From an uncultured Dehalococcoidia bacterium (GTDB lineage: Bacteria; Chloroflexota; Dehalococcoidia; Lucifugimonadales; UBA1123): a DNA stretch of 64,000 bases. Of the stretch, positions 1 to 29,072 are shown piece by piece; the stretch's first letter is position 1; each line of letters starts with the position of its first letter. Both the position numbers and the translations under genes were made by a program. The notes beneath the pieces were generated by a model. The model searched no databases and was not told the DNA's origin. It worked only from the letters and a program-made list of their open reading frames with translations. Location of the stretch: the NCBI GenBank assembly GCA_958296105.1, contig OY282441.1, positions 1,877,800-1,941,799 on the forward strand, in the 5' to 3' direction.

Positions 1-26
1 GGCCGGCGCCTTTCAGCGCCGGAAAC
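1..26 (-). repeat. Partial oldest visible repeat, GGCCGGCGC stem variant
   Basis: The window opens inside a repeat. Its 26 nt carry the CCGGCGC/GCGCCGG stem of the main block, but with G rather than A in front of GCCGGCGC. These 26 nt are identical to the matching part of the solitary repeat at 34115-34151, so that solitary copy resembles the array's distal, presumably oldest, repeat type. Confidence 0.9.
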
Positions 27-63
27 CGGCGCAGGGGATCGAGATGGTGTCGTGGGTATGCCC

Positions 64-172
64 GCTTCAATGGGTCCGGTGACTTTCGCCACCGGAAACC
101 TGTAACTACATTAGGCAACTGGCTGAGAGGGTTCGGGCTTCAATGGGTCCGGTGACTTTCGCCACCGGAAAC
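64..172 (-). repeat. Repeat block with CCGGTG/CACCGG stem (2 copies)
   Basis: Repeats at 64-99 and 137-172 carry CCGGTG on one arm and CACCGG on the other, with ACTTTCGC between. Both arms differ from the neighbouring blocks yet remain complementary. Confidence 0.95.
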
Positions 173-212
173 GACGAAACCCTACATAGACATTCCCGTG
201 TTCCTCAAGGGC

Positions 213-614
213 GCTTCAATGGGGCCGAGGACTTTCGCCCTCGGAAACTTCGGATGAGGACTTTCGCGGTCGCGAGGGCGTAGTAGCTTCAATGGGGCCG
301 AGGACTTTCGCCCTCGGAAACCGCACCTTTCCGCCCCTCATCGGTAGATCATTCATACGCTTCAATGGAGCCGAGGACTTTCGCCCTCGGAAACGAGACC
401 GACGAATACATGGTGACGTACATCTTCAGCACGCTTCAATGGAGCCGAGGACTTTCGCCCTCGGAAACGAGCGTATGGCTGACCTAACCGATACGGAGTC
501 GGCCTAGCTTCAATGGAGCCGAGGACTTTCGCCCTCGGAAACCTAAATAAATACAGCGCGAACGCGCTTGACAGTTGAGCTTCAATGGAGCCGAGGACTT
601 TCGCCCTCGGAAAC
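213..614 (-). repeat. Repeat block with CCGAGG/CCTCGG stem (6 copies)
   Basis: Repeats at 213, 286, 359, 433, 507 and 579 carry CCGAGG and CCTCGG arms around ACTTTCGC. The first two have GGGG before the stem and the last four GGAG, a single-base step between the two sub-blocks. Confidence 0.95.
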
Positions 615-651
615 TGCGACAACTAGCCACCTACTTCATCCCCTACCCTGC

Positions 652-3600
652 GCTTCAATGGAGCCGGCGCCTTTCAGCGCCGGAAACGTGGCGCGCGCTG
701 ATGGCGATCTGAGACCAGCCGCCCGGCTTCAATGGAGCCGGCGCCTTTCAGCGCCGGAAACAAGGAGTTCACGATAGAACAGCTGAGAGCTTGGTCGCTT
801 CAATGGAGCCGGCGCCTTTCAGCGCCGGAAACAAGATTGGCAGATGAACGTCTGCGACCTCATCTCCGCTTCAATGGAGCCGGCGCCTTTCAGCGCCGGA
901 AACTCGTGTCCTCGTTGAGGTCTCGTGCCACGCCTTCGTAGCTTCAATGGAGCCGGCGCCTTTCAGCGCCGGAAACTCGTGTCCTCGTTGAGGTCTCGTG
1001 CCACGCCTTCGTAGCTTCAATGGAGCCGGCGCCTTTCAGCGCCGGAAACTCGTGTCCTCGTTGAGGTCTCGTGCCACGCCTTCGTAGCTTCAATGGAGCC
1101 GGCGCCTTTCAGCGCCGGAAACTCGTGTCCTCGTTGAGGTCTCGTGCCACGCCTTCGTAGCTTCAATGGAGCCGGCGCCTTTCAGCGCCGGAAACTCGTG
1201 TCCTCGTTGAGGTCTCGTGCCACGCCTTCGTAGCTTCAATGGAGCCGGCGCCTTTCAGCGCCGGAAACTCGTGTCCTCGTTGAGGTCTCGTGCCACGCCT
1301 TCGTAGCTTCAATGGAGCCGGCGCCTTTCAGCGCCGGAAACTCGTGTCCTCGTTGAGGTCTCGTGCCACGCCTTCGTAGCTTCAATGGAGCCGGCGCCTT
1401 TCAGCGCCGGAAACAGGCGGCAGTCTCAGGAGTATCACCGAGCAGAAGACGCTTCAATGGAGCCGGCGCCTTTCAGCGCCGGAAACATGGTGTAGGGCGC
1501 GGCATAGAACGCGGTGATGTCCGCGCTTCAATGGAGCCGGCGCCTTTCAGCGCCGGAAACCATCAGGCCGGCCTGCTCGACCCACAGCCCCTACCCGCTT
1601 CAATGGAGCCGGCGCCTTTCAGCGCCGGAAACGATGCGCAGTAGTGTTTGGATGTGAGGTAGAGGGCGCGCTTCAATGGAGCCGGCGCCTTTCAGCGCCG
1701 GAAACCCGCGCCGGCGGCGGCATGGAGTGTTCATCCGAGCGTTGCTTCAATGGAGCCGGCGCCTTTCAGCGCCGGAAACACGTGATCCACGTTGCGAACG
1801 GCCTGGCGCTCTCCAGCTTCAATGGAGCCGGCGCCTTTCAGCGCCGGAAACCGGGAGGGGGGGTAAGTAAAGCCGCCGTCGCATCGGCTTCAATGGAGCC
1901 GGCGCCTTTCAGCGCCGGAAACGCGAAGAGATTCGCGCCGACGTTCATCTGTTCGTGGCTTCAATGGAGCCGGCGCCTTTCAGCGCCGGAAACCTGCTCG
2001 GAGCGTGCGGTGGTGGGGACGACGGGATAGAGCTTCAATGGAGCCGGCGCCTTTCAGCGCCGGAAACAGCCCACGTTGGTCGAGCCGGTGCCCTCGTGGA
2101 ACCCGCTTCAATGGAGCCGGCGCCTTTCAGCGCCGGAAACCCGGTATCCCCGCTGAAGCTGGGCTTCGCTGGTTCGCTTCAATGGAGCCGGCGCCTTTCA
2201 GCGCCGGAAACAGATTTCCCGTTCTCAATTCCCCTTCGATGATTGACGGCTTCAATGGAGCCGGCGCCTTTCAGCGCCGGAAACCTGCTGCCGCTTCCCT
2301 CGCGCTCGGTCGCCCACAGGCTTCAATGGAGCCGGCGCCTTTCAGCGCCGGAAACAATCCTAATCGGATTCTTGATTGCGGTAAAATGCCCGCTTCAATG
2401 GAGCCGGCGCCTTTCAGCGCCGGAAACGTGTTCGGGGAACGCCGCCAGTACCTCCGCATCGTGGGCTTCAATGGAGCCGGCGCCTTTCAGCGCCGGAAAC
2501 GTGCTAGTCGTAGTCTGGGTCGGTCTCGATGATCGAGCTTCAATGGAGCCGGCGCCTTTCAGCGCCGGAAACTTGGTGGTCGGACATAGCCCTCGCCGTT
2601 CGTTCGTCGCTTCAATGGAGCCGGCGCCTTTCAGCGCCGGAAACCTCAATGTCGATCTCGATGTCGATGCCGAGTGACGAGCTTCAATGGAGCCGGCGCC
2701 TTTCAGCGCCGGAAACCGTGAAGCCCAGGAGACACAGGCGGCGATTGTCGAGGCTTCAATGGAGCCGGCGCCTTTCAGCGCCGGAAACAACGGGGGCTGT
2801 GAGAGCGCCCCCAAAGCGAAATCCGCTTCAATGGAGCCGGCGCCTTTCAGCGCCGGAAACGCCCTAGACCGATTGCCCATGAGCGCGCCGGAAACGGCTT
2901 CAATGGAGCCGGCGCCTTTCAGCGCCGGAAACCTGTAGGTGTCCTCGTCCCACTCGGGGCCTTCGAAGATGCTTCAATGGAGCCGGCGCCTTTCAGCGCC
3001 GGAAACCCGGCCTATCTCCGGCTCATCGCCCAATACATCGCTGCTTCAATGGAGCCGGCGCCTTTCAGCGCCGGAAACAAGCATGAGAGGAGAAGATACA
3101 CCATGCACCCACTCGCTTCAATGGAGCCGGCGCCTTTCAGCGCCGGAAACCGCAGACCCGCAGCCCTGCTCGACCGCTCCCTGCTCGCTTCAATGGAGCC
3201 GGCGCCTTTCAGCGCCGGAAACCACCGGCTCGCCTTCTTGAGCGGCTGAACCTCAAGGGCTTCAATGGAGCCGGCGCCTTTCAGCGCCGGAAACGGTCAC
3301 GGCGGCGAAATATGCCGCTGTGACGAAAATGCTTCAATGGAGCCGGCGCCTTTCAGCGCCGGAAACGGTCACGGCGGCGAAATATGCCGCTGTGACGAAA
3401 ATGCTTCAATGGAGCCGGCGCCTTTCAGCGCCGGAAACCCTACCCCACCCATCACAACCGCCCGAACCTCCGCAGCTTCAATGGAGCCGGCGCCTTTCAG
3501 CGCCGGAAACAGACGTAGAATCCGTCAGCCTCGCCGCCGCTCTGCGAGCTTCAATGGAGCCGGCGCCTTTCAGCGCCGGAAACTACGCTCAGCGTACCAC

Positions 3601-6600
3601 AGTATCGGACGCTCTGGCTGCTTCAATGGAGCCGGCGCCTTTCAGCGCCGGAAACTTGTGACAGCGGTGTGGCTTTCTCTCCGGAAGCAACGTGGCTTCA
3701 ATGGAGCCGGCGCCTTTCAGCGCCGGAAACTTGAAACTCCCTCGGTGTCGGTGTGGCTGAATCGACAAGCTTCAATGGAGCCGGCGCCTTTCAGCGCCGG
3801 AAACCTGCCGTTGTCGTTGCATATCTGGCATGGTGTGAGATGCTTCAATGGAGCCGGCGCCTTTCAGCGCCGGAAACTCAAGGCCTATGCGAAGATTCAA
3901 GCGACGAGCTTCAGCTTCAATGGAGCCGGCGCCTTTCAGCGCCGGAAACCAGAGGGCAAGGGATGGTTGGGTATCGCGCCCTCTGGCTTCAATGGAGCCG
4001 GCGCCTTTCAGCGCCGGAAACCGTAGTATTCAGCGCGTTCTCGTTCTCGGTCAATTGCGCTTCAATGGAGCCGGCGCCTTTCAGCGCCGGAAACCCAGTC
4101 CAGCTATGACCGCTTGATGTTCGAGATTCCGGCTTCAATGGAGCCGGCGCCTTTCAGCGCCGGAAACTGGCAGGGCATGGATGATTGGGTATGCCGCCCT
4201 CTGGGCTTCAATGGAGCCGGCGCCTTTCAGCGCCGGAAACCCGAGATTGACAGTTGAGGGCGCAAGCGTAATAGGGCTTCAATGGAGCCGGCGCCTTTCA
4301 GCGCCGGAAACCTCGAGATCCTGCCACTGTTCAGTAGATGGGAGCGGGCTTCAATGGAGCCGGCGCCTTTCAGCGCCGGAAACGCGCCGCGCCGCTGGTT
4401 TCGAGTGACAGCCAGCCGATGCTTCAATGGAGCCGGCGCCTTTCAGCGCCGGAAACTGTCAGACAATGTGAGCTTCAAGTTCAACAAGGCTCTGCTTCAA
4501 TGGAGCCGGCGCCTTTCAGCGCCGGAAACGAGCGGAAGGGAGGGGACATCGTACAAACCGGTGTTCGCTTCAATGGAGCCGGCGCCTTTCAGCGCCGGAA
4601 ACCGAACTGGACTGAGAAGTCGGGCTACGTGCGGCATACGCTTCAATGGAGCCGGCGCCTTTCAGCGCCGGAAACCGAGGTGTAGAGTGAGAAGGGCGCG
4701 TTCAGCCCGTTCGCTTCAATGGAGCCGGCGCCTTTCAGCGCCGGAAACTAGGAGGACAATATGACCACCGCAACTCCCACCTGGCTTCAATGGAGCCGGC
4801 GCCTTTCAGCGCCGGAAACTATGATGACGATGACGATGCGGCTGAGATTACCTCTGCTTCAATGGAGCCGGCGCCTTTCAGCGCCGGAAACATGCCAAAC
4901 CTATGGGCGCCCTCGACCAGACCAGCTGGCTTCAATGGAGCCGGCGCCTTTCAGCGCCGGAAACAGGAAGACCATCCCGATCTTCGGCGACGTGTGGATC
5001 GCTTCAATGGAGCCGGCGCCTTTCAGCGCCGGAAACTGGCGGATTACGTGGTTGCCTTCGGCAGCGGCGGCCAGCTTCAATGGAGCCGGCGCCTTTCAGC
5101 GCCGGAAACGAATCCGACGTGAGGTGATCCGTGACTGACGGCGAGGCTTCAATGGAGCCGGCGCCTTTCAGCGCCGGAAACCAGCCCGGAAGATATCATG
5201 GTGACGCGGATGATCAGGGCTTCAATGGAGCCGGCGCCTTTCAGCGCCGGAAACGTTCCAGTCCGAGCCTACGAGCTTGCGCGCGTTGTTGCTTCAATGG
5301 AGCCGGCGCCTTTCAGCGCCGGAAACCGGGCGAATAGGCGAACAATCCACAGGGGCGCCAGCAGCTTCAATGGAGCCGGCGCCTTTCAGCGCCGGAAACC
5401 CATCCTGTACGCGATCACGTAGTCGGATAATTCCGTGCTTCAATGGAGCCGGCGCCTTTCAGCGCCGGAAACCAGGCGGAGATGCCGCTATGAGTCGTCC
5501 GCAGGTCGTGCTTCAATGGAGCCGGCGCCTTTCAGCGCCGGAAACGAACCCGCCCGGCGGATCCCAGTTCGCGCATAGTTGGGCTTCAATGGAGCCGGCG
5601 CCTTTCAGCGCCGGAAACGATTCCACCAACAACATCACGATAGCGGGTTCGTCTAGCTTCAATGGAGCCGGCGCCTTTCAGCGCCGGAAACAAGTCAGCA
5701 GGTTATTCGGTGAAAGGAGGGTAGCCGTGCTTCAATGGAGCCGGCGCCTTTCAGCGCCGGAAACCGACCAGCCCATGAGCTTCACCGGTGCGAGCGCATC
5801 GGGCTTCAATGGAGCCGGCGCCTTTCAGCGCCGGAAACGTCGATAGAACGGGATTACTCCACACCGTTCTACCCGCTTCAATGGAGCCGGCGCCTTTCAG
5901 CGCCGGAAACGATGGGGACGGTGTATATGATTCCCGGTGTGTGTTCGCTTCAATGGAGCCGGCGCCTTTCAGCGCCGGAAACGGTGCGTAGAAGCCCGTC
6001 AACTCGAATGCTCTGCGCCGTGGCTTCAATGGAGCCGGCGCCTTTCAGCGCCGGAAACGCAAAATCACGAGACGAAGAGCTGCACGCCTCCATCGCTTCA
6101 ATGGAGCCGGCGCCTTTCAGCGCCGGAAACGTGCAGGCATCTGTCAAACTACGCTGAAGGCGTTCAGCTTCAATGGAGCCGGCGCCTTTCAGCGCCGGAA
6201 ACGCGTATGCTCTCGATCATCTCTTCCCGTATCCGCCCTGGCTTCAATGGAGCCGGCGCCTTTCAGCGCCGGAAACGCGAAGCACGCGCTTTTCCGTATC
6301 AGTCAGACGGTCGTGCTTCAATGGAGCCGGCGCCTTTCAGCGCCGGAAACCCGGCGCAGGTAGCGATAACTCCCCCGGTGCCAGTAATGCTTCAATGGAG
6401 CCGGCGCCTTTCAGCGCCGGAAACGAGGCCCCGCCGATCGCGGCGGAGGCGGCGAAGCTCGGCGCTTCAATGGAGCCGGCGCCTTTCAGCGCCGGAAACT
6501 GGCGGATGGACAGCGGAGAGCGGCGGAGTGATCCGGCTTCAATGGAGCCGGCGCCTTTCAGCGCCGGAAACCTGGCTCGATCTCCGTTGCTGGTGGATTC

Positions 6601-9600
6601 CCGACTTGCTTCAATGGAGCCGGCGCCTTTCAGCGCCGGAAACATGCCTGACGAAGCAGCCACTACCGAAGAATCAACAGGCTTCAATGGAGCCGGCGCC
6701 TTTCAGCGCCGGAAACCTCTCGGTGATACTCGCTGTCCGCGTATATCCTGTCGCTTCAATGGAGCCGGCGCCTTTCAGCGCCGGAAACATCCGCCTGCCG
6801 CGTTGAGCGCGGATTCAGCGTCCGGCTTCAATGGAGCCGGCGCCTTTCAGCGCCGGAAACCCGGCGCTGGACGCTGGACGCAGGAAGCTGGGATGGCTTC
6901 AATGGAGCCGGCGCCTTTCAGCGCCGGAAACCCGTTCGTAGAGTTTCAGAGGCTTTTGCGTTGGGTATCGCTTCAATGGAGCCGGCGCCTTTCAGCGCCG
7001 GAAACGGGGCTGGACGTGTTCATCCGCTACCAGACCTACAGCTTCAATGGAGCCGGCGCCTTTCAGCGCCGGAAACTAGTCGAGTATGCGTAACTCGCCG
7101 TAAGGTTTGAGTGCTTCAATGGAGCCGGCGCCTTTCAGCGCCGGAAACCATGGAAGGCGGCGGCGATGTGTTCTGTATTACCTCGCTTCAATGGAGCCGG
7201 CGCCTTTCAGCGCCGGAAACGAGAAGCTGGAGATGAATCCCATGATGCCCGGGTTGGCTTCAATGGAGCCGGCGCCTTTCAGCGCCGGAAACGCGGAAGC
7301 GGAACGTGCAGGTGTCTGCTTGTTGGACCTGCTTCAATGGAGCCGGCGCCTTTCAGCGCCGGAAACCCGCCGCGCCGCCGAAGAAGCCATCGACCGGCTC
7401 GTCCTGCTTCAATGGAGCCGGCGCCTTTCAGCGCCGGAAACCCCATTTACCCAAACCGCTGATATGACAAGCTATCCGCTTCAATGGAGCCGGCGCCTTT
7501 CAGCGCCGGAAACACAGAGAGAACATCGGATACTTGCCGATGTTCGCGCGCGCTTCAATGGAGCCGGCGCCTTTCAGCGCCGGAAACTGGGCGCGCCGGC
7601 GCGCCCGTCGCAGACAGTATCTACGCTTCAATGGAGCCGGCGCCTTTCAGCGCCGGAAACTCGAGGGAACGAACGCCAACAGCTGGGACGTCCCCAAGCT
7701 TCAATGGAGCCGGCGCCTTTCAGCGCCGGAAACGCCACACCGCGCGCACAGACGGCCGCGGCTGTACAACGCTTCAATGGAGCCGGCGCCTTTCAGCGCC
7801 GGAAACCCGAAACTGCGATTTCCTGCCTTCCTGTGCGCGCAGGGCTTCAATGGAGCCGGCGCCTTTCAGCGCCGGAAACCTGCGGGGATACTATCCCCGA
7901 CACCAGCGCGCCCGTGCTTCAATGGAGCCGGCGCCTTTCAGCGCCGGAAACTGGGACGCAGACCGTTACGGCTCTGTCCTCCTCGCTAGAGCTTCAATGG
8001 AGCCGGCGCCTTTCAGCGCCGGAAACGCCTTACTAGGCAATACATAGGCTCGGACTGTTCGAGGCTTCAATGGAGCCGGCGCCTTTCAGCGCCGGAAACG
8101 CATCCCAGCTTCCCAGCAATCTGAAAATTGCCTCCGCTTCAATGGAGCCGGCGCCTTTCAGCGCCGGAAACATGGAGAACAACAGATATGCCTCGTTGGT
8201 TCGCGCAGCTTCAATGGAGCCGGCGCCTTTCAGCGCCGGAAACGCCGGCGCTGGGAAGCTGGGATGCGCCGGCGCTGGGCTTCAATGGAGCCGGCGCCTT
8301 TCAGCGCCGGAAACTCTGGAGTGGGTGTTGGCGGACATAGCGCATACGGAGCTTCAATGGAGCCGGCGCCTTTCAGCGCCGGAAACTCTGGAGTGGGTGT
8401 TGGCGGACATAGCGCATACGGAGCTTCAATGGAGCCGGCGCCTTTCAGCGCCGGAAACTATACCGTCTAGGGGCTCTTCAAGATGGAAGGTTATGGCGCT
8501 TCAATGGAGCCGGCGCCTTTCAGCGCCGGAAACTGTAGACCTGCACGCGCTCCGGGCCGACGTTCGTCACGCTTCAATGGAGCCGGCGCCTTTCAGCGCC
8601 GGAAACTGAGGATTAGATCGGCCTGCACGTTCAGCTGGGAGAGGCTTCAATGGAGCCGGCGCCTTTCAGCGCCGGAAACGAGACGATCTTCCTCGCCTTG
8701 TGGTTGGCGTTACGGAAGGCTTCAATGGAGCCGGCGCCTTTCAGCGCCGGAAACGGGCCTGTTCATAAAGCCTAAAGAGGCGAGCGAGATATTGCTTCAA
8801 TGGAGCCGGCGCCTTTCAGCGCCGGAAACGATTGGCAGTCATTCCATCGGAGGTGTGACCATGACCGCTTCAATGGAGCCGGCGCCTTTCAGCGCCGGAA
8901 ACGCGGCGAAAACGACAGCGTGGAGCGCGTCTACGACCGCAGCTTCAATGGAGCCGGCGCCTTTCAGCGCCGGAAACTGCCAGCGGCGGCGGCATCGCCA
9001 ACTACCTATCCGGAGCTTCAATGGAGCCGGCGCCTTTCAGCGCCGGAAACGCTAACGTGGACAACATCTTGCACGGCGACGCATCCGCTTCAATGGAGCC
9101 GGCGCCTTTCAGCGCCGGAAACGACCGTCCAGTCTGTCCCGATAGCGGGCGCGTACATGCTTCAATGGAGCCGGCGCCTTTCAGCGCCGGAAACGGGTAG
9201 GGCATACTGGAATTGTGGTTGTGGGCACATGTGCTTCAATGGAGCCGGCGCCTTTCAGCGCCGGAAACATGCGCCGCCGCCAGCAGCTGGCGCGATACCA
9301 CCCGGCGCTTCAATGGAGCCGGCGCCTTTCAGCGCCGGAAACACGCCTCTGACCAACGAGCTTGCGTTGGCAATTCAAGCTTCAATGGAGCCGGCGCCTT
9401 TCAGCGCCGGAAACGTCGGTCATGCACGGGAAGCATCGAGCCACCCACTGGGCTTCAATGGAGCCGGCGCCTTTCAGCGCCGGAAACCCTCTGGAACACC
9501 CTGGGGCTCAAGGGCGCATTCGTGCTTCAATGGAGCCGGCGCCTTTCAGCGCCGGAAACTCTCTCGACCCTGGTCAGTAACCCATCGAGACAACGTGCTT

Positions 9601-12600
9601 CAATGGAGCCGGCGCCTTTCAGCGCCGGAAACACCAATATACCGGTGCCAGCCGCGATGATCGACACGCTTCAATGGAGCCGGCGCCTTTCAGCGCCGGA
9701 AACTGCCCAGACGCGGGAAGCTGTCGATGCGCCGGCGCTGGCTTCAATGGAGCCGGCGCCTTTCAGCGCCGGAAACTGAGCGCAAGGGGGACGGCGCGGC
9801 TTCCGTAGGTCGAGGCTTCAATGGAGCCGGCGCCTTTCAGCGCCGGAAACCATCGTGCGCGTGTTCGTGCGCGCGTGGTATCTCGCGTGCTTCAATGGAG
9901 CCGGCGCCTTTCAGCGCCGGAAACCTGCTGGATGGATGAACCATGAGCCTGAGAGCCGAGCTTCAATGGAGCCGGCGCCTTTCAGCGCCGGAAACCGGCA
10001 CAAACAGGCCGGATTTCGGCTACTGGAGGCGAGCTTCAATGGAGCCGGCGCCTTTCAGCGCCGGAAACGTTTACATCCGAGAGGTCACACGGCGGCGGCA
10101 GGCAACGCTTCAATGGAGCCGGCGCCTTTCAGCGCCGGAAACCGAGGGAGTAGCCCCCGTTGCCGCTGTCCCCACGCCGCTTCAATGGAGCCGGCGCCTT
10201 TCAGCGCCGGAAACAAGGGGCTACGGGCAGGTTTTCGGGGCAATTTCGGGGCTTCAATGGAGCCGGCGCCTTTCAGCGCCGGAAACCAATCAACGGGCGG
10301 TCTTTCCGTTTGCGGGATGGTGGCTTCAATGGAGCCGGCGCCTTTCAGCGCCGGAAACATCACTGGGATTCGAGGATGCTTGTATCACGCGCTCGCTTCA
10401 ATGGAGCCGGCGCCTTTCAGCGCCGGAAACTTGGCGGACTGCGAAGAGGACTACCATGGGGACGCTGCTTCAATGGAGCCGGCGCCTTTCAGCGCCGGAA
10501 ACGGTATTCACTACCGCTGGCGTAAAGGTGGTGACGCAGCTTCAATGGAGCCGGCGCCTTTCAGCGCCGGAAACATAACCGTTTCGAAGCGGCAGAAGCA
10601 AGAAGAGATGGCTTCAATGGAGCCGGCGCCTTTCAGCGCCGGAAACGATGATCGAAGCTGCGAAGCTGAAAGGCGCAGCACTGGGCTTCAATGGAGCCGG
10701 CGCCTTTCAGCGCCGGAAACATCGGTTGTTGGCGTGTCCGACAACACGACTTCCACGCTTCAATGGAGCCGGCGCCTTTCAGCGCCGGAAACCTCCAGGG
10801 CGAATAGCCGACAAGCTCGCCTGCTCAACGCTTCAATGGAGCCGGCGCCTTTCAGCGCCGGAAACCGCCCCGCCCCCTCTCGGCCTCGGGTGGCGCACGG
10901 TGCTTCAATGGAGCCGGCGCCTTTCAGCGCCGGAAACCTCCTCGATGTCGTCGTCTAGGTCGTCGTCCAGGTCGCTTCAATGGAGCCGGCGCCTTTCAGC
11001 GCCGGAAACCAGGGACACCACCAGCGGGAACACCGGCGCACAGCAAGCTTCAATGGAGCCGGCGCCTTTCAGCGCCGGAAACTTGAGCGTGAACGCTCGG
11101 CAATCTCGGCATGGTATCGCTTCAATGGAGCCGGCGCCTTTCAGCGCCGGAAACTCATCGAGGAAGCCAAGGCTTGCATGAACCGGTTCGCGCTTCAATG
11201 GAGCCGGCGCCTTTCAGCGCCGGAAACTCGGTAGCGGGATTGAATGCCACGATACCCAGCATGGCTTCAATGGAGCCGGCGCCTTTCAGCGCCGGAAACT
11301 CGGCACGCAGGTTAGAGTTGCCGCTGTACGCTTCGCTTCAATGGAGCCGGCGCCTTTCAGCGCCGGAAACTATCAGAGGCCGACCGGATTCGATTCGCGC
11401 GTTGACGCTTCAATGGAGCCGGCGCCTTTCAGCGCCGGAAACTGGGACGAGGAAGAGGTCGAGCAGGTTGAAGAAGTCGCTTCAATGGAGCCGGCGCCTT
11501 TCAGCGCCGGAAACATGCCGTTTCCAATCTGCCGCGTTTCCGGTCGTAAGCTTCAATGGAGCCGGCGCCTTTCAGCGCCGGAAACGGGGGACGATAGATG
11601 GGTGCGAGCGTTGAAACCGCTTGACGCTTCAATGGAGCCGGCGCCTTTCAGCGCCGGAAACACGGGCTGGATTATCAAGGCGTGCTGCGCACGCTGGTGC
11701 TTCAATGGAGCCGGCGCCTTTCAGCGCCGGAAACTTTGGGACAGCGTCTCAATGGCGGGAACATGCGTGGCTTCAATGGAGCCGGCGCCTTTCAGCGCCG
11801 GAAACCGGCGATTAACTGGAACGGACGCTACGAGGATTTGTCGCTTCAATGGAGCCGGCGCCTTTCAGCGCCGGAAACGACGGCAGAGGCGATAGAACCA
11901 GTTGCGTTTCCCGTGCTTCAATGGAGCCGGCGCCTTTCAGCACCGGAAACAAGCAGAAAGAGAGGCCCTGATCGGGCTGCGTCACCGCTTCAATGGAGCC
12001 GGCGCCTTTCAGCGCCGGAAACCATGGCGGGGGAGTGCAAAAGGTTACACGGTGAATCTCGCTTCAATGGAGCCGGCGCCTTTCAGCGCCGGAAACTTGA
12101 ACGGGGTTCGGCAAATCGAGGCGCGGCGGCTGGCGCTTCAATGGAGCCGGCGCCTTTCAGCGCCGGAAACCGATAATGCGCTCGTGCGTCTGTCTCCTGG
12201 GCTTGGCGCTTCAATGGAGCCGGCGCCTTTCAGCGCCGGAAACTCGTATGATGAAATAGAGGTAGTCCTTGCTTCTATGCTTCAATGGAGCCGGCGCCTT
12301 TCAGCGCCGGAAACTCCGAGTCCAACGGTATTCCTCACCCGCGTAGGTCTGCTTCAATGGAGCCGGCGCCTTTCAGCGCCGGAAACTCACCCTATCCGGT
12401 TCAATGCGCGGCAGCTCATCGCGGCTTCAATGGAGCCGGCGCCTTTCAGCGCCGGAAACAAGCAGCGTTGTGGCGACTGTCTCAATCGACGTCGGGCTTC
12501 AATGGAGCCGGCGCCTTTCAGCGCCGGAAACACCGGGATGCTCGTCGAGCGTCCACTCCGAAACCATCGCTTCAATGGAGCCGGCGCCTTTCAGCGCCGG

Positions 12601-14499
12601 AAACCACGCCGAGGATGTACTCCTTTCTGAAGCTCTCCTCGCTTCAATGGAGCCGGCGCCTTTCAGCGCCGGAAACTCGAAGAGAAACTCAGCGCAACCA
12701 GCCAGCAGAGGAGGCTTCAATGGAGCCGGCGCCTTTCAGCGCCGGAAACCGGCAACGAAGAGCTGATGCGGTGTCGGATGCTCGTTGCTTCAATGGAGCC
12801 GGCGCCTTTCAGCGCCGGAAACGTTACCGGCAATGTCCGAGCTTGGCGCGACTTCATCGCTTCAATGGAGCCGGCGCCTTTCAGCGCCGGAAACCACAAG
12901 AACGCTGCCATGTCAGAGCCGCTCGCATAACGCTTCAATGGAGCCGGCGCCTTTCAGCGCCGGAAACCTCGCCCGCCTCGCGAGTGGGGACAACACCTAC
13001 TTCTCGGGCTTCAATGGAGCCGGCGCCTTTCAGCGCCGGAAACCTTCCCAGCGCCGGCGCATCCCCACAGTGCGCGCAGGCTTCAATGGAGCCGGCGCCT
13101 TTCAGCGCCGGAAACAAGTCAGCAGGTGATTAGGTGATGCCGCGCAAGAAGGCTTCAATGGAGCCGGCGCCTTTCAGCGCCGGAAACTTGACGAACTCAA
13201 CGCAGACGCTGGCAGGCTCGTTCGCTTCAATGGAGCCGGCGCCTTTCAGCGCCGGAAACTCTGATACATCGGGGCGACCTTATTTCGGTCATTTTCGCTT
13301 CAATGGAGCCGGCGCCTTTCAGCGCCGGAAACGAACCATCAGGAGATCGACAAATTCAAGGCGGCATTGCTTCAATGGAGCCGGCGCCTTTCAGCGCCGG
13401 AAACAGGCGCTCCCGACCACGACCACTAGGAGGGGAAATGCTTCAATGGAGCCGGCGCCTTTCAGCGCCGGAAACTACCGCTTAGCGTGGCGCGGGGTGC
13501 AAACACAACAGGCTTCAATGGAGCCGGCGCCTTTCAGCGCCGGAAACCTGCGCAGGGCAGGCGGGGCTGTGCTTGTCTAGTTGCGGCTTCAATGGAGCCG
13601 GCGCCTTTCAGCGCCGGAAACATGCCCGAAATACTCGACCGCTCGCTAGATATTTTCCGGCTTCAATGGAGCCGGCGCCTTTCAGCGCCGGAAACTTCTT
13701 CATCGGAACGGACATCAGAATCTGTATTGATGGCTTCAATGGAGCCGGCGCCTTTCAGCGCCGGAAACGCGCGGCGTGGGTGGGGGTGTTGACCTACTGT
13801 CGGGCTTCAATGGAGCCGGCGCCTTTCAGCGCCGGAAACCGGCCCGAACGGAATGCCAGTTCCGAGCCGCAGAGAGCTTCAATGGAGCCGGCGCCTTTCA
13901 GCGCCGGAAACTGCCGCATTTCTGGATGTGACCGTAAGCACCGTTCCAGCTTCAATGGAGCCGGCGCCTTTCAGCGCCGGAAACTCGGCCGGGACGTACT
14001 GCTCCGCCTTGATGTACTCGGCGCTTCAATGGAGCCGGCGCCTTTCAGCGCCGGAAACCCTAGCGTAGTGATCCCGGTGCATGAGGTAGCTGTTGCGCTT
14101 CAATGGAGCCGGCGCCTTTCAGCGCCGGAAACTGGGCATCTCTGGCGCACCGTCACGGGCGGCTCCGCCCGCCGCTTCAATGGAGCCGGCGCCTTTCAGC
14201 GCCGGAAACCAGCCGAGCTGCTGGCTGATAGCGCGTGGGAAAATATCGCTTCAATGGAGCCGGCGCCTTTCAGCGCCGGAAACCCTCCTCCTTGCCGCAC
14301 TCTGTCCAGCCGCCATAGGCTTCAATGGAGCCGGCGCCTTTCAGCGCCGGAAACGACGGCTTCGTACACCTCGTCGTTGCCCAGCACTACGGCTTCAATG
14401 GAGCCGGCGCCTTTCAGCGCCGGAAACCGCCCATGAGGGATTGGGTATGCCGCGCCCTCTACCGCTTCAATGGAGCCGGCGCCTTTCAGCGCCGGAAAC
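652..14499 (-). repeat. Main repeat block, CCGGCGC/GCGCCGG stem (about 192 copies)
   Basis: All copies I inspected are identical, with a 7-bp stem CCGGCGC/GCGCCGG around CTTTCA, except the repeat at 11915-11950, which has A instead of G at 11942. In transcript orientation the handle ends GAAGC. Confidence 0.95.
904..1378. repeat. Seven tandem copies of one spacer-repeat unit
   Basis: The same 37-nt spacer (starting TCGTGTCCTCG) occurs at 904, 977, 1050, 1123, 1196, 1269 and 1342, each followed by an identical repeat, giving an exact 73-bp period. This is either amplification by slippage or recombination, or an assembly error. Confidence 0.97.
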
Positions 14500-14537
14500 T
14501 CGAACGCGCGCCCCGTCGGACGGCTCACCACGATCAC

Positions 14538-15154
14538 CCTTCAATGGAGCCGGCGCCTTTCAGCGCCGGAAACGCCCGTCTCGTGGTCGAGCGCGACCGT
14601 CTGCCGCGCACCTTCAATGGAGCCGGCGCCTTTCAGCGCCGGAAACCCTACTTCGCGCGCGCCCGTCCGATGAAGCACCCCTCCCTTCAATGGAGCCGGC
14701 GCCTTTCAGCGCCGGAAACTCCAGCTGAAGCACCAGAACGGGAACAAGGAGGTAATCCTTCAATGGAGCCGGCGCCTTTCAGCGCCGGAAACACCGCGAA
14801 CGAGAGCCACGCTGAAGGTAGCATGGCCCTTCAATGGAGCCGGCGCCTTTCAGCGCCGGAAACGAGCGCATCTTCAGAGAGTGACGCGCTGGATTCGCGC
14901 ACCTTCAATGGAGCCGGCGCCTTTCAGCGCCGGAAACCAGAAATTAGCGAAGGCCGCGCTCCAACTTCAACAGCCTTCAATGGAGCCGGCGCCTTTCAGC
15001 GCCGGAAACTCGTTGATGAACGATAACGATGCCGGCCACACCTTTCCTTCAATGGAGCCGGCGCCTTTCAGCGCCGGAAACGCGGTTCGGGAAGAGATGG
15101 TGTACGCCGGGGCTTATGCCTTCAATGGAGCCGGCGCCTTTCAGCGCCGGAAAC
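14538..15154 (-). repeat. Repeat block with main stem but GG handle end (9 copies)
   Basis: Nine consecutive repeats (14538 to 15119) keep the CCGGCGC stem but begin CCTTCAATGG instead of GCTTCAATGG on the plus strand. The crRNA handle would therefore end GG rather than GC. This single change precedes the stem switch in the next block. Confidence 0.93.
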
Positions 15155-15190
15155 CGGTAAACGCTTTGGCGGCGTAAGCAAGGAAATAGG

Positions 15191-18100
15191 CCTTCAATGG
15201 GGCCGAGGGCTTTCACCCTCGGAAACCAGGTGCCGCCGCCCGACTCTGCGACAGATCCACTTGGCCCTTCAATGGGGCCGAGGGCTTTCACCCTCGGAAA
15301 CCTCGATATGGCAAAGCCTTTTGAGAATGCCGAATTCCCTTCAATGGGGCCGAGGGCTTTCACCCTCGGAAACATCAGGAGGTATGCCTACTATGGCTAC
15401 GCAGACAGACCTTCAATGGGGCCGAGGGCTTTCACCCTCGGAAACGGAGGACAAGATGTCCACAGAGATTGACAACGCGACCTTCAATGGGGCCGAGGGC
15501 TTTCACCCTCGGAAACCGATTGATGGTGCGCTGAACGTTCCAGAGAACACCTACCTTCAATGGGGCCGAGGGCTTTCACCCTCGGAAACTCGGGCGCTCC
15601 CCCTCACCATAGAAATCCGCCGCAAACCTTCAATGGGGCCGAGGGCTTTCACCCTCGGAAACAGCGACAGGCGGAAATCGCAACGACTGCATACCTAGCC
15701 TTCAATGGGGCCGAGGGCTTTCACCCTCGGAAACTTGGGCAATTCAGGACGCTTCGCCGCTATATGGAGAATGCCTTCAATGGGGCCGAGGGCTTTCACC
15801 CTCGGAAACCACGGGTCGATGCACTGGTTCGCCTCGTCGGTCAGCCTTCAATGGGGCCGAGGGCTTTCACCCTCGGAAACCTGCTCGACCCGCAGCCAAT
15901 AGCTGGCGCCGGCTACACCTTCAATGGGGCCGAGGGCTTTCACCCTCGGAAACTAGGTGCCTCGTCCGTCCCCGGTCGAATTGGAAGCGCCTTCAATGGG
16001 GCCGAGGGCTTTCACCCTCGGAAACCAGAACTCCAAGAGCTGGGGATCATCAAGAGAGGGATCCTTCAATGGGGCCGAGGGCTTTCACCCTCGGAAACGA
16101 TAGGGCGACCGACCGATTGACTAGAAGCGTATCCCTTCAATGGGGCCGAGGGCTTTCACCCTCGGAAACTCGGTCAAGAATAATAATAAGGCCGTGGATA
16201 ATGTCGACCTTCAATGGGGCCGAGGGCTTTCACCCTCGGAAACCGGCGGTGTACATTTCGCCGATGCTGAAGTCGTCTTGCCTTCAATGGGGCCGAGGGC
16301 TTTCACCCTCGGAAACCTGTTCGCAAGAAACAGCACGCACGCCCCCAGAACTCCCTTCAATGGGGCCGAGGGCTTTCACCCTCGGAAACTGCCAGTGAGC
16401 AGTAGCTTGCCTCTGAGTGAGCCGCCCTTCAATGGGGCCGAGGGCTTTCACCCTCGGAAACTCGGACGCGCGCCAACCCCTCGCAGGCGTCCGATTCCTT
16501 CAATGGGGCCGAGGGCTTTCACCCTCGGAAACCCCCGTAACCATCGAGTGCGTGAGTTGCCCGAAGGGCCTTCAATGGGGCCGAGGGCTTTCACCCTCGG
16601 AAACTAGACTCTCCGTATACGGATCGACGAGAGCATGAGAGGACCTTCAATGGGGCCGAGGGCTTTCACCCTCGGAAACGCGAAGGCGGGGTTTGCCTTT
16701 GCTTTCTTCGCGCTGCCTTCAATGGGGCCGAGGGCTTTCACCCTCGGAAACGGCGAAAGCGGGATGGAGTATCTCACTATCCCATTTGCCTTCAATGGGG
16801 CCGAGGGCTTTCACCCTCGGAAACCGGCGACTGCACCCGACGCTAAGCCGCTAGAATACTCCTTCAATGGGGCCGAGGGCTTTCACCCTCGGAAACCACG
16901 AAGGACAGAAGAAATGCCATTGGGTCTTAGAGCCTTCAATGGGGCCGAGGGCTTTCACCCTCGGAAACGGATTCTACCGAGTCCCGGCTAAGGTATTTGG
17001 CGGTACCTTCAATGGGGCCGAGGGCTTTCACCCTCGGAAACCGGGCTATCTCTAACTGAAAGAGGTGATGTAATGACGCCTTCAATGGGGCCGAGGGCTT
17101 TCACCCTCGGAAACGTCTTATGCTTACGCCCATCTCGCTTCTTATCAAGGGAATCCTTCAATGGGGCCGAGGGCTTTCACCCTCGGAAACGAGGCATCTC
17201 AAGAATACATTTCCCGGAGGCGGTATCCCTTCAATGGGGCCGAGGGCTTTCACCCTCGGAAACTGAGATGGCCGGCAGGCTCTGCTACATGAGCTATCCG
17301 CCTTCAATGGGGCCGAGGGCTTTCACCCTCGGAAACTCGTTCCAATCGGAGATGTATGGCACACCCTTCGCATGGACCTTCAATGGGGCCGAGGGCTTTC
17401 ACCCTCGGAAACATGCTTATGGCCGGGCTGAAGGTGGAATCCGATGCCTCCTTCAATGGGGCCGAGGGCTTTCACCCTCGGAAACGAGCGCGTGGGAAAC
17501 ATACCGTCAACGGCATGAGCACCTTCAATGGGGCCGAGGGCTTTCACCCTCGGAAACGCGCTGTGCGATCCGCTCGCGCGCCGCGTTTCGCACCTTCAAT
17601 GGGGCCGAGGGCTTTCACCCTCGGAAACTCGCCGCCCTTGCGGACGGCGGCGAATCCATAGTCGGCGCCTTCAATGGGGCCGAGGGCTTTCACCCTCGGA
17701 AACTGGGCGCACCACAGATAGGAGGGACGAAATGGCAACGACCTTCAATGGGGCCGAGGGCTTTCACCCTCGGAAACCAGCCTAGCTCTCGACCCATCGG
17801 GTCGCCGGCAAATTCCTTCAATGGGGCCGAGGGCTTTCACCCTCGGAAACATCGCGGCTGTCTGCTCCATCTCTTCTATTTCGTCACCCTTCAATGGGGC
17901 CGAGGGCTTTCACCCTCGGAAACGCGACCATCGGGATAACCGCGCCGAACGCCTGCTTCCTTCAATGGGGCCGAGGGCTTTCACCCTCGGAAACCGAAGA
18001 CGAGATAATCACCATACTTGCCGCGCGCCTTCAATGGGGCCGAGGGCTTTCACCCTCGGAAACCCGAGGACGCAGAACTCTGGCTAGAAGTCGAGTCAAT

Positions 18101-18863
18101 CCTTCAATGGGGCCGAGGGCTTTCACCCTCGGAAACCGAGATGGTGCGCTGGCTCGAAGATCCCGGCATTTCCCTTCAATGGGGCCGAGGGCTTTCACCC
18201 TCGGAAACGCAGGTGTTGAACAAAAACTACCACTCGATGGGCTACCTTCAATGGGGCCGAGGGCTTTCACCCTCGGAAACGCGAGTCGTGACCACTGATG
18301 CGATGGTGGTCGATTACCTTCAATGGGGCCGAGGGCTTTCACCCTCGGAAACCTGATGCGTGAGTGGTGGGCGTACCACCTCGACGAGCACCTTCAATGG
18401 GGCCGAGGGCTTTCACCCTCGGAAACGAGTATGGCTTTGCGCGCGTTGCCCACGTCCACGATTACCCTTCAATGGGGCCGAGGGCTTTCACCCTCGGAAA
18501 CCCCGTATCTGGATCGACCTGACGGAAGCAGTCGGCACCTTCAATGGGGCCGAGGGCTTTCACCCTCGGAAACGATGCGAGCGAAGGCTCGGCTGAACGC
18601 CATAATGAACCTTCAATGGGGCCGAGGGCTTTCACCCTCGGAAACTTGGTTAGTCGGTCTTGCGCCTCGCTTGGCTAGTCCCTTCAATGGGGCCGAGGGC
18701 TTTCACCCTCGGAAACTACTTCATCTAGGCTCCCGCCTTCATACACCAAATCCCTTCAATGGGGCCGAGGGCTTTCACCCTCGGAAACATGAACGATCCT
18801 ACACCTTATCTGGAGAGGCTCAGGAAGCCTTCAATGGGGCCGAGGGCTTTCACCCTCGGAAAC
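15191..18863 (-). repeat. Leader-proximal repeat block, CCGAGGG/CCCTCGG stem (51 copies)
   Basis: I counted 51 repeats from 15191 to 18828. They keep the CCTTCAATGG start but have GGGG before a 7-bp CCGAGGG/CCCTCGG stem around CTTTCA. If the leader is on the right, this is the repeat currently being copied at acquisition. Confidence 0.95.
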
Positions 18864-19148
18864 AGCCCTACCACTGCGATTTGCGTAGATCTCCTCGCAT
18901 GTGATGGGTGTGTGACACGAACTCGACACTCTCACGACCACTCCAGATAGAGATATGCTGACATTTTGGACGCTAACCCTGAAATCCGCCCTCCAATTTT
19001 GCGAGCGCTCCAAGCTGGCGCGCCCATCAGCCCACCCCTCGCATGGCAGCCTTCCCGCCAGCGGATAGCCCTCGCCTCACACAATAGTACCACATCCGCC
19101 TCGGACGATGGCGACCTCGCGCACAACGAGCTTCGGATGGGGGCAGAG
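18864..19148 (-). promoter_or_regulatory. Probable CRISPR leader between array and cas2
   Basis: These 285 bases lie between the last repeat and the cas2 stop and hold no convincing gene. By position and repeat orientation this is the expected leader, reading leftward into the array. I could not identify a good promoter; a stretch near 18950-18980 is the least GC-rich part. A 16-base segment at 19107-19122 duplicates 19155-19170, the end of the cas2 coding sequence, 48 bp away. Confidence 0.5.
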
Positions 19149-19439
19149 TCAGATGATGGCGACCTCGCGCTCGACCGGCTTCATCTGCCGCCCAAGCGTG
19201 CTGAGCGTCTTGCCACCACGTCCCCCGATCGGCCCCGTGTCTATGATCAGCACCCTGTCCTCCCTGAGGTCGATCACCTCCGTCAGCGCCTCTTCCAGAA
19301 GCACGCGCTCCTTGCGCGACAGGTCACAGGAGAACACCGAGTATTGCAGATGCGTTCCGAACCCGTTCATCTTCTTGAAAGTGCGCCGCAGACGCTTGGG
19401 GTCGCTCACGTCGTAGGTAACTATGAATCTGTTCCGCAC
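19149..19439 (-). CDS. cas2: CRISPR adaptation endonuclease Cas2
   Basis: The 96-residue product has the usual Cas2 length and start: MRNRFIVTYDVSDPKRL, with the conserved N-terminal beta strand and Asp of the metal site (YDVSD). The FGTHLQYSVFSCDLS strand and the central RVLIIDTG strand complete a ferredoxin-like fold. Cas2 bridges two Cas1 dimers and holds the prespacer during integration. The gene is the last of the cas operon, 4 bp after the cas4-cas1 stop and just before the presumed leader, which fits the I-G order cas4/1-cas2-array. Confidence 0.96.
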   Translation of the reverse strand: MRNRFIVTYDVSDPKRLRRTFKKMNGFGTHLQYSVFSCDLSRKERVLLEEALTEVIDLREDRVLIIDTGPIGGRGGKTLSTLGRQMKPVEREVAII

Positions 19440-19443
19440 CGTC

Positions 19444-21216
19444 TCACCTCGTCGTGAACGCAGGATACTTCTCCAGCTCGCCCAGCACGTGCCTGCACAT
19501 CAGCCGCGCCTGAACCTCCATTATCCTGCGGTAGCTGATCGAGTAGCCGAACAGCGGGTGGGTTATCAGACTGTCCAGCCTCCGCTCTATCGCCCTGATA
19601 ACCGCCCTGCGCCCGCCTTCCGTGAGCGCCACCGCCCCGCCTCGCCTGATGAAGTCGGACGGCTTCAGCTCCGAGTTGTTGAACAGCGTCAGCGCCGCAG
19701 AGTCCGCCACTATGGGGCGGAACTCTTCGGCAAGATCCAGCGCCAAGGCAGGCTTGCCGTATTTCGGCTGGTGGTAGAAACCCAGATACGGGTCGAAGCC
19801 AACCGCTATCGCAGACACCATCGCCTGCCTCATCAGCACCGAGTACAGCAGCGACAGCACCGCGTTGACCGGGTCCCTCGGCGGCCTGCGGTTGCGCGTC
19901 CTGAAGTCGAACGCAGACTCCTCAGAGCGGATCATCGCCCCGAAGTTGGAGAAATAGACCCTCGCCCCCGCCCCCTCTATGCCGAGCAGCGTCTGAAGCG
20001 ATCCCGCCTCGCGCGCACTGCGCGTGAGCCGCGATATCTCACCCAGCGCAGCCGAAGGCGCGTCCGCGTGGTTCCTCCGAAGCATCACCCTGCTGTTGCG
20101 CAGCTTCGCCGTCACGATCTCCCGCGCTATCGCAACCGACCTGTCCACGTCGCGCGCGGCGGCGAACTGCTGAATCCGAAGCTCCACGTTCTTGTGTCCC
20201 GTGCCAGACGTCACACCCTTCAGCCACCCGCCGTAGGTGAAGTGGCAGATCGGCATACCTCGATCCAGCAGCTCGCGCGTTGCCTGCGCCGTCACCTGCG
20301 CGTTGCCGAAGATCGAGAGGTTCGAGACGTCCAGCAGCCTCGCGCTCGCTATCTTCTCCCCCCTCACCTTCACCGTGAGACTGTCCCCAGACTTGCCCAC
20401 CACCGCGCCCTGCTTCATCACGTACATCGGCAGCGCGTCGTCCCGCGCCGGCGCCATTCGCCGAACGTCGTCCGGCTTGACGACGTGGCTGCTGCCGTTG
20501 AGAAACGTCACCTCGTCCGGCAGACAGATACCCACCAGCGAACATCGCGGACACTTTGGACTGTCTTCCAGAGGCGGCGGAATCTTCCCCTGCGCCGCCA
20601 TCGAGCGCGCCCCTTCCAGCAGCTCCAGCGTTCGACTCACCAGCGCGTCGTCGAACGCAACCTCGACCCTGCGCTTCGATCCCACGTAGTAGATGACGCC
20701 CCCGTCGGACTCGAACCCGTTTCGTCTCAGCAGAAGCCCTTGCAGGCACAGCTGAACCCGCTCCGGCTCCCATGCCCGCTCCGGGATGTTGGGGACTTTC
20801 CCGCGCTTGTAGTCGACCGGCGTCGCCCTGCGCCCCTCGACCTCCACCAGATCGAGACGCGCTATTGCGCCGAGCGTCTCGTCCAAGAGCATCACCGATC
20901 TCGCGTGGATGGTGTGCGACTCCTCAGCGGAGTCCGCGTCCGGCAGATCGCCCGACTGACGATCCACGCGCCTGTGCTGGAAACGCCCGTCCACCGTGTC
21001 CGCGCTGTGCGCGAACTCCCCCTGCACCCACTCCAGATAGGAGAGCCTGGGGCAGTAGGCGAACTCGTTGAGCATCCGAGCCGGAACCAGCTCGGTCGAG
21101 AGATTGGCTTGCGGAGCGCCGCCGTTGCCCTCGTGAGGCGTCTGACGCTGCGCGCGCGGCTCGGATATTGGCTCGTGCTGTGGTACGGAGGTGGTCATGG
21201 CTCGTCGATTCTCCAC
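19444..21216 (-). CDS. cas4-cas1: Cas4-Cas1 fusion, spacer acquisition protein
   Basis: The N-terminal part (about 45-235) is a Cas4 nuclease: a first Cys in EFAYCPRLSY (C55), a PVDYKRGK nuclease motif (about 133-140) and a C-terminal cluster CPRC...C (222, 225, 231) for an Fe-S centre. From about 255 it is Cas1, with the Glu of GIEGAGARVYF, then NFGAMI, NRRPPRDPVNAVLS, the His of GFYHQPKYGK and the Asp of ALDLAEEFRP, the expected Glu/His/Asp metal ligands. Cas4 selects and trims PAM-containing prespacers and Cas1 integrates them. This fusion is a hallmark of type I-G (I-U). The start is uncertain: GTG at 21216, or ATG at 21198, 13 nt after a GGAG. The GTG lies inside an inverted repeat (21211-21256). 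Confidence 0.95.
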   Translation of the reverse strand: MENRRAMTTSVPQHEPISEPRAQRQTPHEGNGGAPQANLSTELVPARMLNEFAYCPRLSYLEWVQGEFAHSADTVDGRFQHRRVDRQSGDLPDADSAEESHTIHARSVMLLDETLGAIARLDLVEVEGRRATPVDYKRGKVPNIPERAWEPERVQLCLQGLLLRRNGFESDGGVIYYVGSKRRVEVAFDDALVSRTLELLEGARSMAAQGKIPPPLEDSPKCPRCSLVGICLPDEVTFLNGSSHVVKPDDVRRMAPARDDALPMYVMKQGAVVGKSGDSLTVKVRGEKIASARLLDVSNLSIFGNAQVTAQATRELLDRGMPICHFTYGGWLKGVTSGTGHKNVELRIQQFAAARDVDRSVAIAREIVTAKLRNSRVMLRRNHADAPSAALGEISRLTRSAREAGSLQTLLGIEGAGARVYFSNFGAMIRSEESAFDFRTRNRRPPRDPVNAVLSLLYSVLMRQAMVSAIAVGFDPYLGFYHQPKYGKPALALDLAEEFRPIVADSAALTLFNNSELKPSDFIRRGGAVALTEGGRRAVIRAIERRLDSLITHPLFGYSISYRRIMEVQARLMCRHVLGELEKYPAFTTR

Positions 21217-22574: not shown

Positions 22575-23533
22575 CAGTCGCCCTCCCCTCTCCACATCAT
22601 CGGAGCTGCGAGCGCGAACGCCGCCTGAACCGGGTGGACGCCCATTTCGGCGAGCTTGTCGCGGTCGTCCTCGGACAGCAGACGCTCCGGCCCAATCGCG
22701 CCGCCGTAGAACGGCTTGGGCGCGCCGCCCGTATGGAAGCACGCGCCCGCCTCCAGCATCACTTGAGGACGCTTGAACACGGCTGTCGCGTGGAACTCCG
22801 GAGCCATCTTGCCGTACTTCACGAAGCCGCGCCAGAAGCCTTCCACCGGATCGCCCGCCGCCGGCTGGAACGTCGAGAGAGATACGAACCCATCCGCAGA
22901 GGGAACGTCATCCAGCTCCGGACACGGCTCTGGCTCTCCATCGAGATCGAACCCTCCGTGACCTGTCGAAGCCCGCGCCCCGTAGCCGACCTGCCCCAGC
23001 GCCGTCAGCGCCCGCGTCAGTATCTCCAGCCCGTCATCGTCCGCCGCGCGCGCGTACAGCGTGAGCCGTCCGTTCTCCGGATCGCTCAGATCGGAATACG
23101 CCACTTCGAACAGACCGCCCTCGTCGTTCGCCGAACCCGTCTCGCGCGAAACCGAATTCCGCATCCGAACGTGATTTCGTATGGATACGCCCGAAGCGTC
23201 CTTCAGACTCGGCTGCGTCCCCTTCTGCGTGGCCATGAAGTCTTCGGACGAAAGCAGGCGCAGCTTCTTGACCCTCTTCCGATCCTCCGGCGCCCAGCCC
23301 CAGAACGGCAGCGGCAGGCTCGCGGGCGCGGGCAGTGAATCCGCGGGGAAGGCGTCCGATATGACGAAGCGCGGCTCGCCGGCAAGCCACGGTTCGAGAA
23401 AGTCGCGGCGGAGAGCCGCAGCGCCGTTGGACCGCGCCCACGCCACCGCCAGCGCGCCCAGCAGCGAGTCGGCCTGCCAGGGCGTGATCCAGACGCCGAG
23501 CGGTCTCAGCCTCAGCCTTACCAGTGTGTCCAC
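22574..23533 (-). CDS. csm4: Csm4-like (Cas5 group) type III effector subunit
   Basis: The likely start is GTG at 23533, overlapping the csm3 end by 16 bp and giving 319 residues, normal for Csm4. The sequence begins VDTLVRLRLRPLGVWIT and contains FISDAFPAD-like and PLPFWGW segments. It ends with the typical Csm4 stretch ATAVFKRPQVMLEAGACF followed by YGG and HPVQAAFALAAPM. Csm4 binds Cas10 and caps the 5' handle of the crRNA. No Csm5 homologue follows, which is unusual for type III-A. The GTG start is inferred; a downstream start is possible. Confidence 0.87.
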   Translation of the reverse strand: MDTLVRLRLRPLGVWITPWQADSLLGALAVAWARSNGAAALRRDFLEPWLAGEPRFVISDAFPADSLPAPASLPLPFWGWAPEDRKRVKKLRLLSSEDFMATQKGTQPSLKDASGVSIRNHVRMRNSVSRETGSANDEGGLFEVAYSDLSDPENGRLTLYARAADDDGLEILTRALTALGQVGYGARASTGHGGFDLDGEPEPCPELDDVPSADGFVSLSTFQPAAGDPVEGFWRGFVKYGKMAPEFHATAVFKRPQVMLEAGACFHTGGAPKPFYGGAIGPERLLSEDDRDKLAEMGVHPVQAAFALAAPMMWRGEGD

Positions 23534-25060: not shown

Positions 25061-25070
25061 AGCTGCCTCC

Positions 25071-28052: not shown

Positions 28053-29072
<1,020 letters not shown>

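Follow-up and report, generated by a model that had tools for sequence, protein, structure and literature searches.

Does an RNA-targeting effector, added to a DNA-targeting CRISPR (clustered regularly interspaced short palindromic repeats) system, alter the spacers that this system keeps? The question is raised by a 64,000-nucleotide stretch (the window) of contig OY282441.1 from an uncultured Dehalococcoidia bacterium, where one very long natural array beside a type I-G operon with a type III-A cassette allows it to be tested. An earlier note on the window had listed 13 spacers with a Shine-Dalgarno (SD) sequence and a start codon on the plus strand, had taken their CRISPR RNAs (crRNAs) to be complementary to mRNA starts, as an RNA-targeting type III effector needs, and had proposed strand-biased acquisition or selection. 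We find that the effect on the spacers kept here is a mild shift at most, a kind of strand preference already on record for shared arrays, and we favour, with moderate confidence, an ordinary shared I-G/III-A array of mild or no strand bias, in which the geometry of the protospacer-adjacent motif (PAM), mild selection and small numbers would together produce the skew at start sites.

Array polarity and the strand of the crRNA

The array and its flank, in positions of the window, comprise the following elements:

1-18863 (the array starts 9 bases left of the window, at -8), minus strand: CRISPR array of 260 repeats and 259 spacers, 251 of them unique
1-18863, minus strand: the repeat, GTTTCCGGCGCTGAAAGGCGCCGGCTCCATTGAAGC in the crRNA-sense reading, with stem variants at the array's two ends
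18864-19148, minus strand: leader, from the array to cas2, with polarity as in PMC10504553

A search of the 3.18 Mb single-contig genome with the repeat pattern recovered 260 copies, all of them inside the array and none outside it. On sequence grounds the crRNA is read from the minus strand, with the array transcribed leftwards, because three independent lines agree: the side on which the leader and cas2 lie, the repeat polarity of related loci, and the geometry of the hairpin and handle. The right end of the array carries the leader and cas2, and the left end a trailer with variant repeats. At related I-G loci, where an array lies beside cas4-1/cas2, the repeat end in the cas direction is nearly always ATTGAAGC or a close variant (...ATTGAA(G/A)). 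The repeat has its GTTTCC end pointing to the leader and its ATTGAAGC end to the spacer, the same orientation as in the Methanosarcina barkeri I-G integration assay, where the GTTTCC end is leader-side and the ATTGAAGC end spacer-side (PMC10504553). Read on the minus strand, it folds into a stem of 7-8 bp, after which come 4 nt and then the 8-nt handle ATTGAAGC, and thus shows both the polarity and the spacing of type I-G, in which Csb2 cleavage has been measured to leave an 8-nt handle, 4 nt past a 7-bp stem (PMC9638904). The crRNA 5' ends are accordingly expected to be AUUGAAGC, on the minus strand. No match to a sigma-70-type promoter was found in the leader (18864-19148).

Transcription from the plus strand would make the start-site crRNAs mRNA-sense and of no use to a type III effector. 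The plus-strand repeat, too, has a terminal GAAAC motif, an ending that occurs in other CRISPR subtypes. Its plus-strand reading leaves 4-5 nt after the stem and no more, and we rejected this orientation on repeat geometry; with the leader, the cas2 side, the hairpin-plus-handle geometry and the I-G repeat polarity all indicating the minus strand (PMC10504553, PMC9638904), it is highly improbable. The proposal that the array is read from the minus strand is thus borne out and, given minus-strand crRNAs, the start motifs on the plus strand yield crRNAs complementary to mRNA, as the earlier note had supposed.

Start-like spacers and array-wide strand usage

All 13 listed sequences are present in the array, and eight or nine of them are convincing as starts, namely the following eight and probably the spacer at 16897:

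3079-3114, plus strand: AGGAGAAGATACACC-ATG (MHPL)
4749-4783, plus strand: TAGGAGGACAAT-ATG (MTTATPT), crRNA antisense
5110-5145, plus strand: GAGGTGATCC-GTG (VTDGE)
8830-8866, plus strand: GGAGGTGTGACC-ATG-ACC
15374-15409 (listed earlier from 15375), plus strand: AGGAGGTATGCCTACT-ATG (MATQT)
15446-15480, plus strand: GGAGGACAAG-ATG (MSTEIDNA)
17042-17078, plus strand: GAGGTGATGTA-ATG-ACG, overlapping a stop
17704-17741, plus strand: AGGAGGGACGAA-ATG (MAT)

The remaining four are not convincing: at 11586-11624 (plus strand) the ATG meets an in-frame stop after 8 codons, the spacers at 10431 and 8171 read equally well as internal coding sequence, and that at 5473 is weak. The companion claim, that the minus strand holds no convincing start, stands for a good SD with ATG, of which there is none, and is weakened by cases with GTG or TTG at 3439, 8100 and 16317.

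The 251 unique spacers were scanned mechanically for a 5-base SD core 4-11 nt from an ATG, with dinucleotide shuffles as the null. This strict scan returned 8 spacers on the plus strand and 0 on the minus (3.0:2.1 expected from the shuffles), or 13:2 with GTG and TTG admitted (6.8:5.2 expected). A second scan, by duplex free energy (dG) with the anti-SD and an open downstream frame, gave plus-to-minus ratios for ATG of 18:1, 7:0 and 5:0 at cut-offs of -5.5, -6.5 and -7.5 kcal/mol, and of 32:10, 13:4 and 7:3 for ATG, GTG and TTG together (all cut-offs tried are given). The 18:1 difference was reached in 0 of 200 shuffles, and control motifs were not skewed, neither those with the order of SD and ATG reversed (6:5) nor those with too wide a gap between the two (7:4). 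In related arrays (1,252 spacers) the counts were 39:36, 22:14 and 15:8, the first of these balanced. Among the 18 lenient hits, four (27, 3950, 4168 and 14428) encode a ..DWVCR.. peptide (QGMDDWVCRPL and variants), all in one orientation, and appear to hit homologous positions in a single gene family, where the ATG would be internal and not a start; since 18:1 is also one of several cut-offs, we do not use it alone. The plus-strand skew of SD+ATG-like spacers is real and more than composition, yet it rests on few events, because the strict start-like spacers number just 8, with about 5 expected by chance.

Does the skew extend to the array as a whole? The coding strand of each spacer was inferred from codon usage, a classifier that yields strand usage without mapped protospacers. 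The fraction of spacers whose crRNA would be antisense came to 0.55 with a codon model from the genes of the window, 0.54 with one from 300 kb of sampled host genome and 0.53 with one from the annotated genes of three phages (0.53-0.57 overall), the upper 95 % limits of these fixed models lying between 0.62 and 0.65. The phage-gene model had a held-out accuracy of 0.77-0.86, and simulations returned true fractions of 0.65 and 0.8; a phage training set of longest open reading frames (ORFs) had a held-out accuracy of 0.61 and was dropped in favour of the annotated genes. Because real viruses may differ in codon use, we also applied an expectation-maximization (EM) procedure that adapts the codon table to the spacers, which gave 0.59-0.62 with a bootstrap standard deviation of 0.06-0.08 (0.60 +/- 0.07), while k-mer asymmetry gave 0.53-0.69 with wide errors. 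A strong array-wide bias (0.75 or more) is unlikely, and the estimates are compatible with an antisense fraction of 0.5 to 0.7. Related I-G arrays, few of which had a type III gene detected nearby (tblastn, array neighbourhood), are at 0.534 (0.487-0.580; 1,177 spacers), from which the array does not differ.

No block of the array is significantly off 0.5, the youngest (15120-18863) leaning to antisense at 32:19 (fraction 0.64, interval 0.43-0.82). One target family is targeted both ways, by spacers 8244 and 9704 in one orientation and by 8100 and 13044 in the other. A GC-rich palindromic element, GGGAAGCTGGGATGCGCCGGCGCTGG, is the target of these four and of the spacer at 6856, in both orientations; 359 kb of sampled host sequence did not contain it. 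From its translation, one further spacer probably has its sense strand on the minus, which would make its crRNA mRNA-sense:

6932-6969, minus strand: spacer with YPTQKPLKLYER, which we take to resemble a methyltransferase motif

PAM geometry may add a skew of its own at start sites. The type I-G PAM is TTN (PMC9638904), and for the I-G Cas4/1 the trinucleotide chosen is GAA on one of the strands (PMC10504553). Phage genes carry GAA directly after their starts more often than TTC ahead of them, and a PAM-selecting enzyme would on that ground alone, with no selection, yield an antisense fraction at starts of 0.61 (GAA/TTC) or 0.58 (NAA/TTN), under which an 8:0 outcome has a probability near 0.02. 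PAM geometry and small numbers thus go some way to the start-site skew, to which mild III-A selection may add.

The searches of phage, plasmid, viral and relative-genome sequences gave a single perfect protospacer, which lies in the host genome itself:

17629-17667, plus strand: leader-proximal self-matching spacer, 39/39 to host chromosome 70771-70809, sense strand plus, crRNA antisense to a 313-amino-acid ORF that, by eye, looks like a formyltransferase

Phages gave no near match to the array, and a distant search with its first 8 kb stayed at chance level, in collections nearly devoid of this lineage's viruses. No protospacer was found in plasmids with the array as query, the spacers had only chance-level matches in 250 genomes of the order, and the array with its repeats, set against 197 relatives, returned the self-target and related arrays. 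A search of IMG/VR with 24 spacer peptides (one used twice) confirmed nothing.

The cas operon and its III-A cassette

Right of the leader, the operon holds the following genes, all on the minus strand:

19149-19439, minus strand: cas2, 96 amino acids, identified by eye from the translation
19444-21216, minus strand: cas4-cas1 fusion of type I-G (profile match to the Cas1g model), with no reverse transcriptase
21342-22742, minus strand: csx1 (CARF-HEPN), its true start probably further downstream than that of the ORF
22574-23953, minus strand: csm4 (profile match), its real start placed near 23530 because the match only begins at residue 144
23518-24192, minus strand: csm3
24203-25123, minus strand: csm2, extended at the N-terminus by three Cys-rich repeats
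25071-26549, minus strand: cas10, 492 amino acids, with the GGDD cyclase motif and without the HD nuclease domain
26565-28046, minus strand: cas5-cas6 fusion (csb2), the type I-G crRNA-processing subunit
28053-29027, minus strand: cas7g (csb1)
29100-31460, minus strand: cas8g (csx17)
31274-33709, minus strand: cas3g

The complement of type I-G is present, with csx17/cas8g, csb1/cas7g, csb2/cas5-6g, cas3 and the Cas4-Cas1 fusion (profile matches: Cas3g 2e-262, Cas8g 2e-204, Cas1g 1e-181, Cas56g 1e-137, Cas7g 7e-46). Between csb2 and cas4-1 lies the III-A cassette of cas10, csm2, csm3, csm4 and csx1, which has the type III-A genes (Cas10 with GGDD, Csm2, Csm3 and Csm4). The Cas10 gave no HD match, its profile match starting at position 198 of 577; HD is missing from some type III Cas10 proteins, and we therefore consider III-A-like the safer name. 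A separate csm5 was not seen between cas10 and csx1, in a search confined to the operon. To judge from the GGDD motif and Csx1, the III-A effector cassette is apparently intact, and RNA targeting is plausible because the cassette sits inside the I-G operon. No reverse transcriptase profile matched among the ten operon ORFs scanned, Cas1 being fused to Cas4 instead.

The closest relatives of the Cas4-Cas1 fusion come from Chloroflexota metagenome genomes (SAR202, Caldilineaceae, Dehalococcoidia). This Cas10 occurs in just one other genome among 247 relatives, where 5-6 kb separate it from an array with 55 repeats that belong to another repeat family, and where it is distant from that genome's own Cas4-1; the III-A cassette thus appears portable. 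In the same genome, a related III-A cassette (394000-413000) holds three csm2-like and two csm3-like stretches, and its cas10 match is split over two reading frames. The Csm2 extension (24203-25123) consists of three near-identical, zinc-ribbon-like repeats and is unusual for Csm2.

The repeats themselves change along the array (1-18863). Their stems differ block by block, from CCGGTGA and CCGAGGA in the oldest through CCGGCGC in about 200 to CCGAGGG in the newest 51, and the partner side of the stem co-varies. The spacer-adjacent repeat base switches from G to C about 10 repeats ahead of the first appearance of the newest stem. The spacer TCGTGTCCTCGTTGAGG... is present 7 times in succession at 904-1380, an expansion of repeat-spacer units, and two further spacers are each present twice.

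Selection, chance and known systems

The reading that we favour runs as follows. In this SAR202-like Chloroflexota host, with a III-A cassette inserted in its I-G operon, both effectors probably draw on the one long array, transcribed from the minus strand, with the Cas5-Cas6 fusion as its processing enzyme. Cas4-Cas1/Cas2 would take spacers from double-stranded DNA, blind to transcription, so that both orientations enter; mRNA-antisense crRNAs would then serve I-G and III-A, mRNA-sense ones I-G only, and net strand usage would settle near balance, at 0.5-0.65 antisense. The start-like skew would be a small-number effect over PAM geometry (NAA/GAA directly downstream of start codons, TTN/TTC upstream), to which a mild retention of RNA-binding spacers perhaps adds, with no strand-biased acquisition implied. 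Several observations pull the other way. The 18:1 ratio at the lenient cut-off differs from that of the related arrays (Fisher p=0.0005), the controls tie the skew to the correct order and spacing of SD and ATG, and the skew exceeds what an antisense fraction of 0.6 easily yields. The EM estimate leans to antisense, and a purine excess on the plus strand (51.3 +/- 0.6 %) has the same direction. Almost no protospacer is mapped, and the sole one, the self-protospacer, lacks a TTN in its flank.

Some of these points would suit a type III selection that retains mRNA-antisense spacers, in which case the coding-strand bias would be genuine, at roughly two thirds, and would show at the start-site spacers. 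The 8:0 and 18:1 skews against balanced related arrays, the intact-looking Cas10 GGDD and Csx1, the youngest block and the EM value all agree with it, as does the coding-strand average of 65 % for type III arrays, with shared I/III arrays also biased, given in the sections of Vink et al. 2021 (PMC8482600) on such arrays. We nevertheless hold it doubtful: the array-wide estimate equals that of the related I-G arrays, no block departs significantly from 0.5, and the same targets are taken in both orientations. An explanation by chance and perception, in which an SD-ATG is more easily seen on the strand being read and the asymmetry of a few, partly spurious motifs would vanish with more data, draws on the low count of strict hits, on the fall of the ratio to 7:3 and 5:2 once GTG/TTG and a strong SD are considered, and on the lenient hits that are internal codons of one family. 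We hold it equally doubtful, as every cut-off leans one way, no shuffle reached the 18:1 difference and the wrong-order controls are flat. Very unlikely, in our view, is a retention confined to spacers antisense to ribosome-binding sites and start codons, with gene bodies unbiased, either since effectors sitting at these sites would block translation as well, or since starts are the most accessible parts of viral mRNA. The contrast of 18:1 with an array-wide 0.53-0.60 speaks for it, but strict start-like spacers are no commoner here than in related arrays (8/251 against 51/1,290), and we know of no precedent. Confidence in these readings overlaps, as PAM geometry, chance and mild selection can all contribute at once.

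What finds no support is the idea of strand-biased acquisition. With Cas1 fused to Cas4 and no reverse transcriptase we rejected RNA-derived acquisition; same-family targets are taken in both orientations, and PAM geometry alone predicts 0.58-0.61 at starts. Since the shift is mild at most, start-codon motifs in spacers are no proof of RNA-directed acquisition. The III-A cassette, set in a I-G operon and without an array of its own, offers a useful natural example of probable effector sharing.

Among known systems, the Marinomonas type III-B system with RT-Cas1 (PMC5576922) likewise joins an RNA-targeting type III effector to a type I system; here, without a reverse transcriptase, there is no known RNA-to-spacer route at the locus. 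Type III adaptation in Thermus thermophilus, studied by Artamonova et al. 2020 (PMC7515739), also involves a Cas1 without a reverse transcriptase; both strands are taken, and strand preference arises from the selection of protective spacers, not from acquisition. In that case the phage spacers that survive selection show a very strong, PAM-free bias, whereas here a PAM-selecting Cas4-Cas1 is paired with a DNA-targeting I-G effector, for which both orientations are useful. The shared I/III arrays in the sections of Vink et al. cited above resemble this locus in combining a single array and a single type I acquisition module with a type III effector that has no cas1, cas2 or cas6 of its own, and in a possible coding-strand preference; the combinations given there are I-A, I-B, I-C and I-E, whereas the partner here is I-G, and in comparison with those arrays any strand bias here would be weak. 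The I-G systems of Thioalkalivibrio and Methanosarcina barkeri (PMC9638904, PMC10504553) share with this locus cas3g, csx17, csb1, csb2, the Cas4/1 fusion, a GTTTCC...ATTGAAGC repeat and a 7-bp stem with the 8-nt handle 4 nt further on, and differ from it in that here a III-A cassette stands between csb2 and cas4-1, beside a very long array with several repeat-stem variants.

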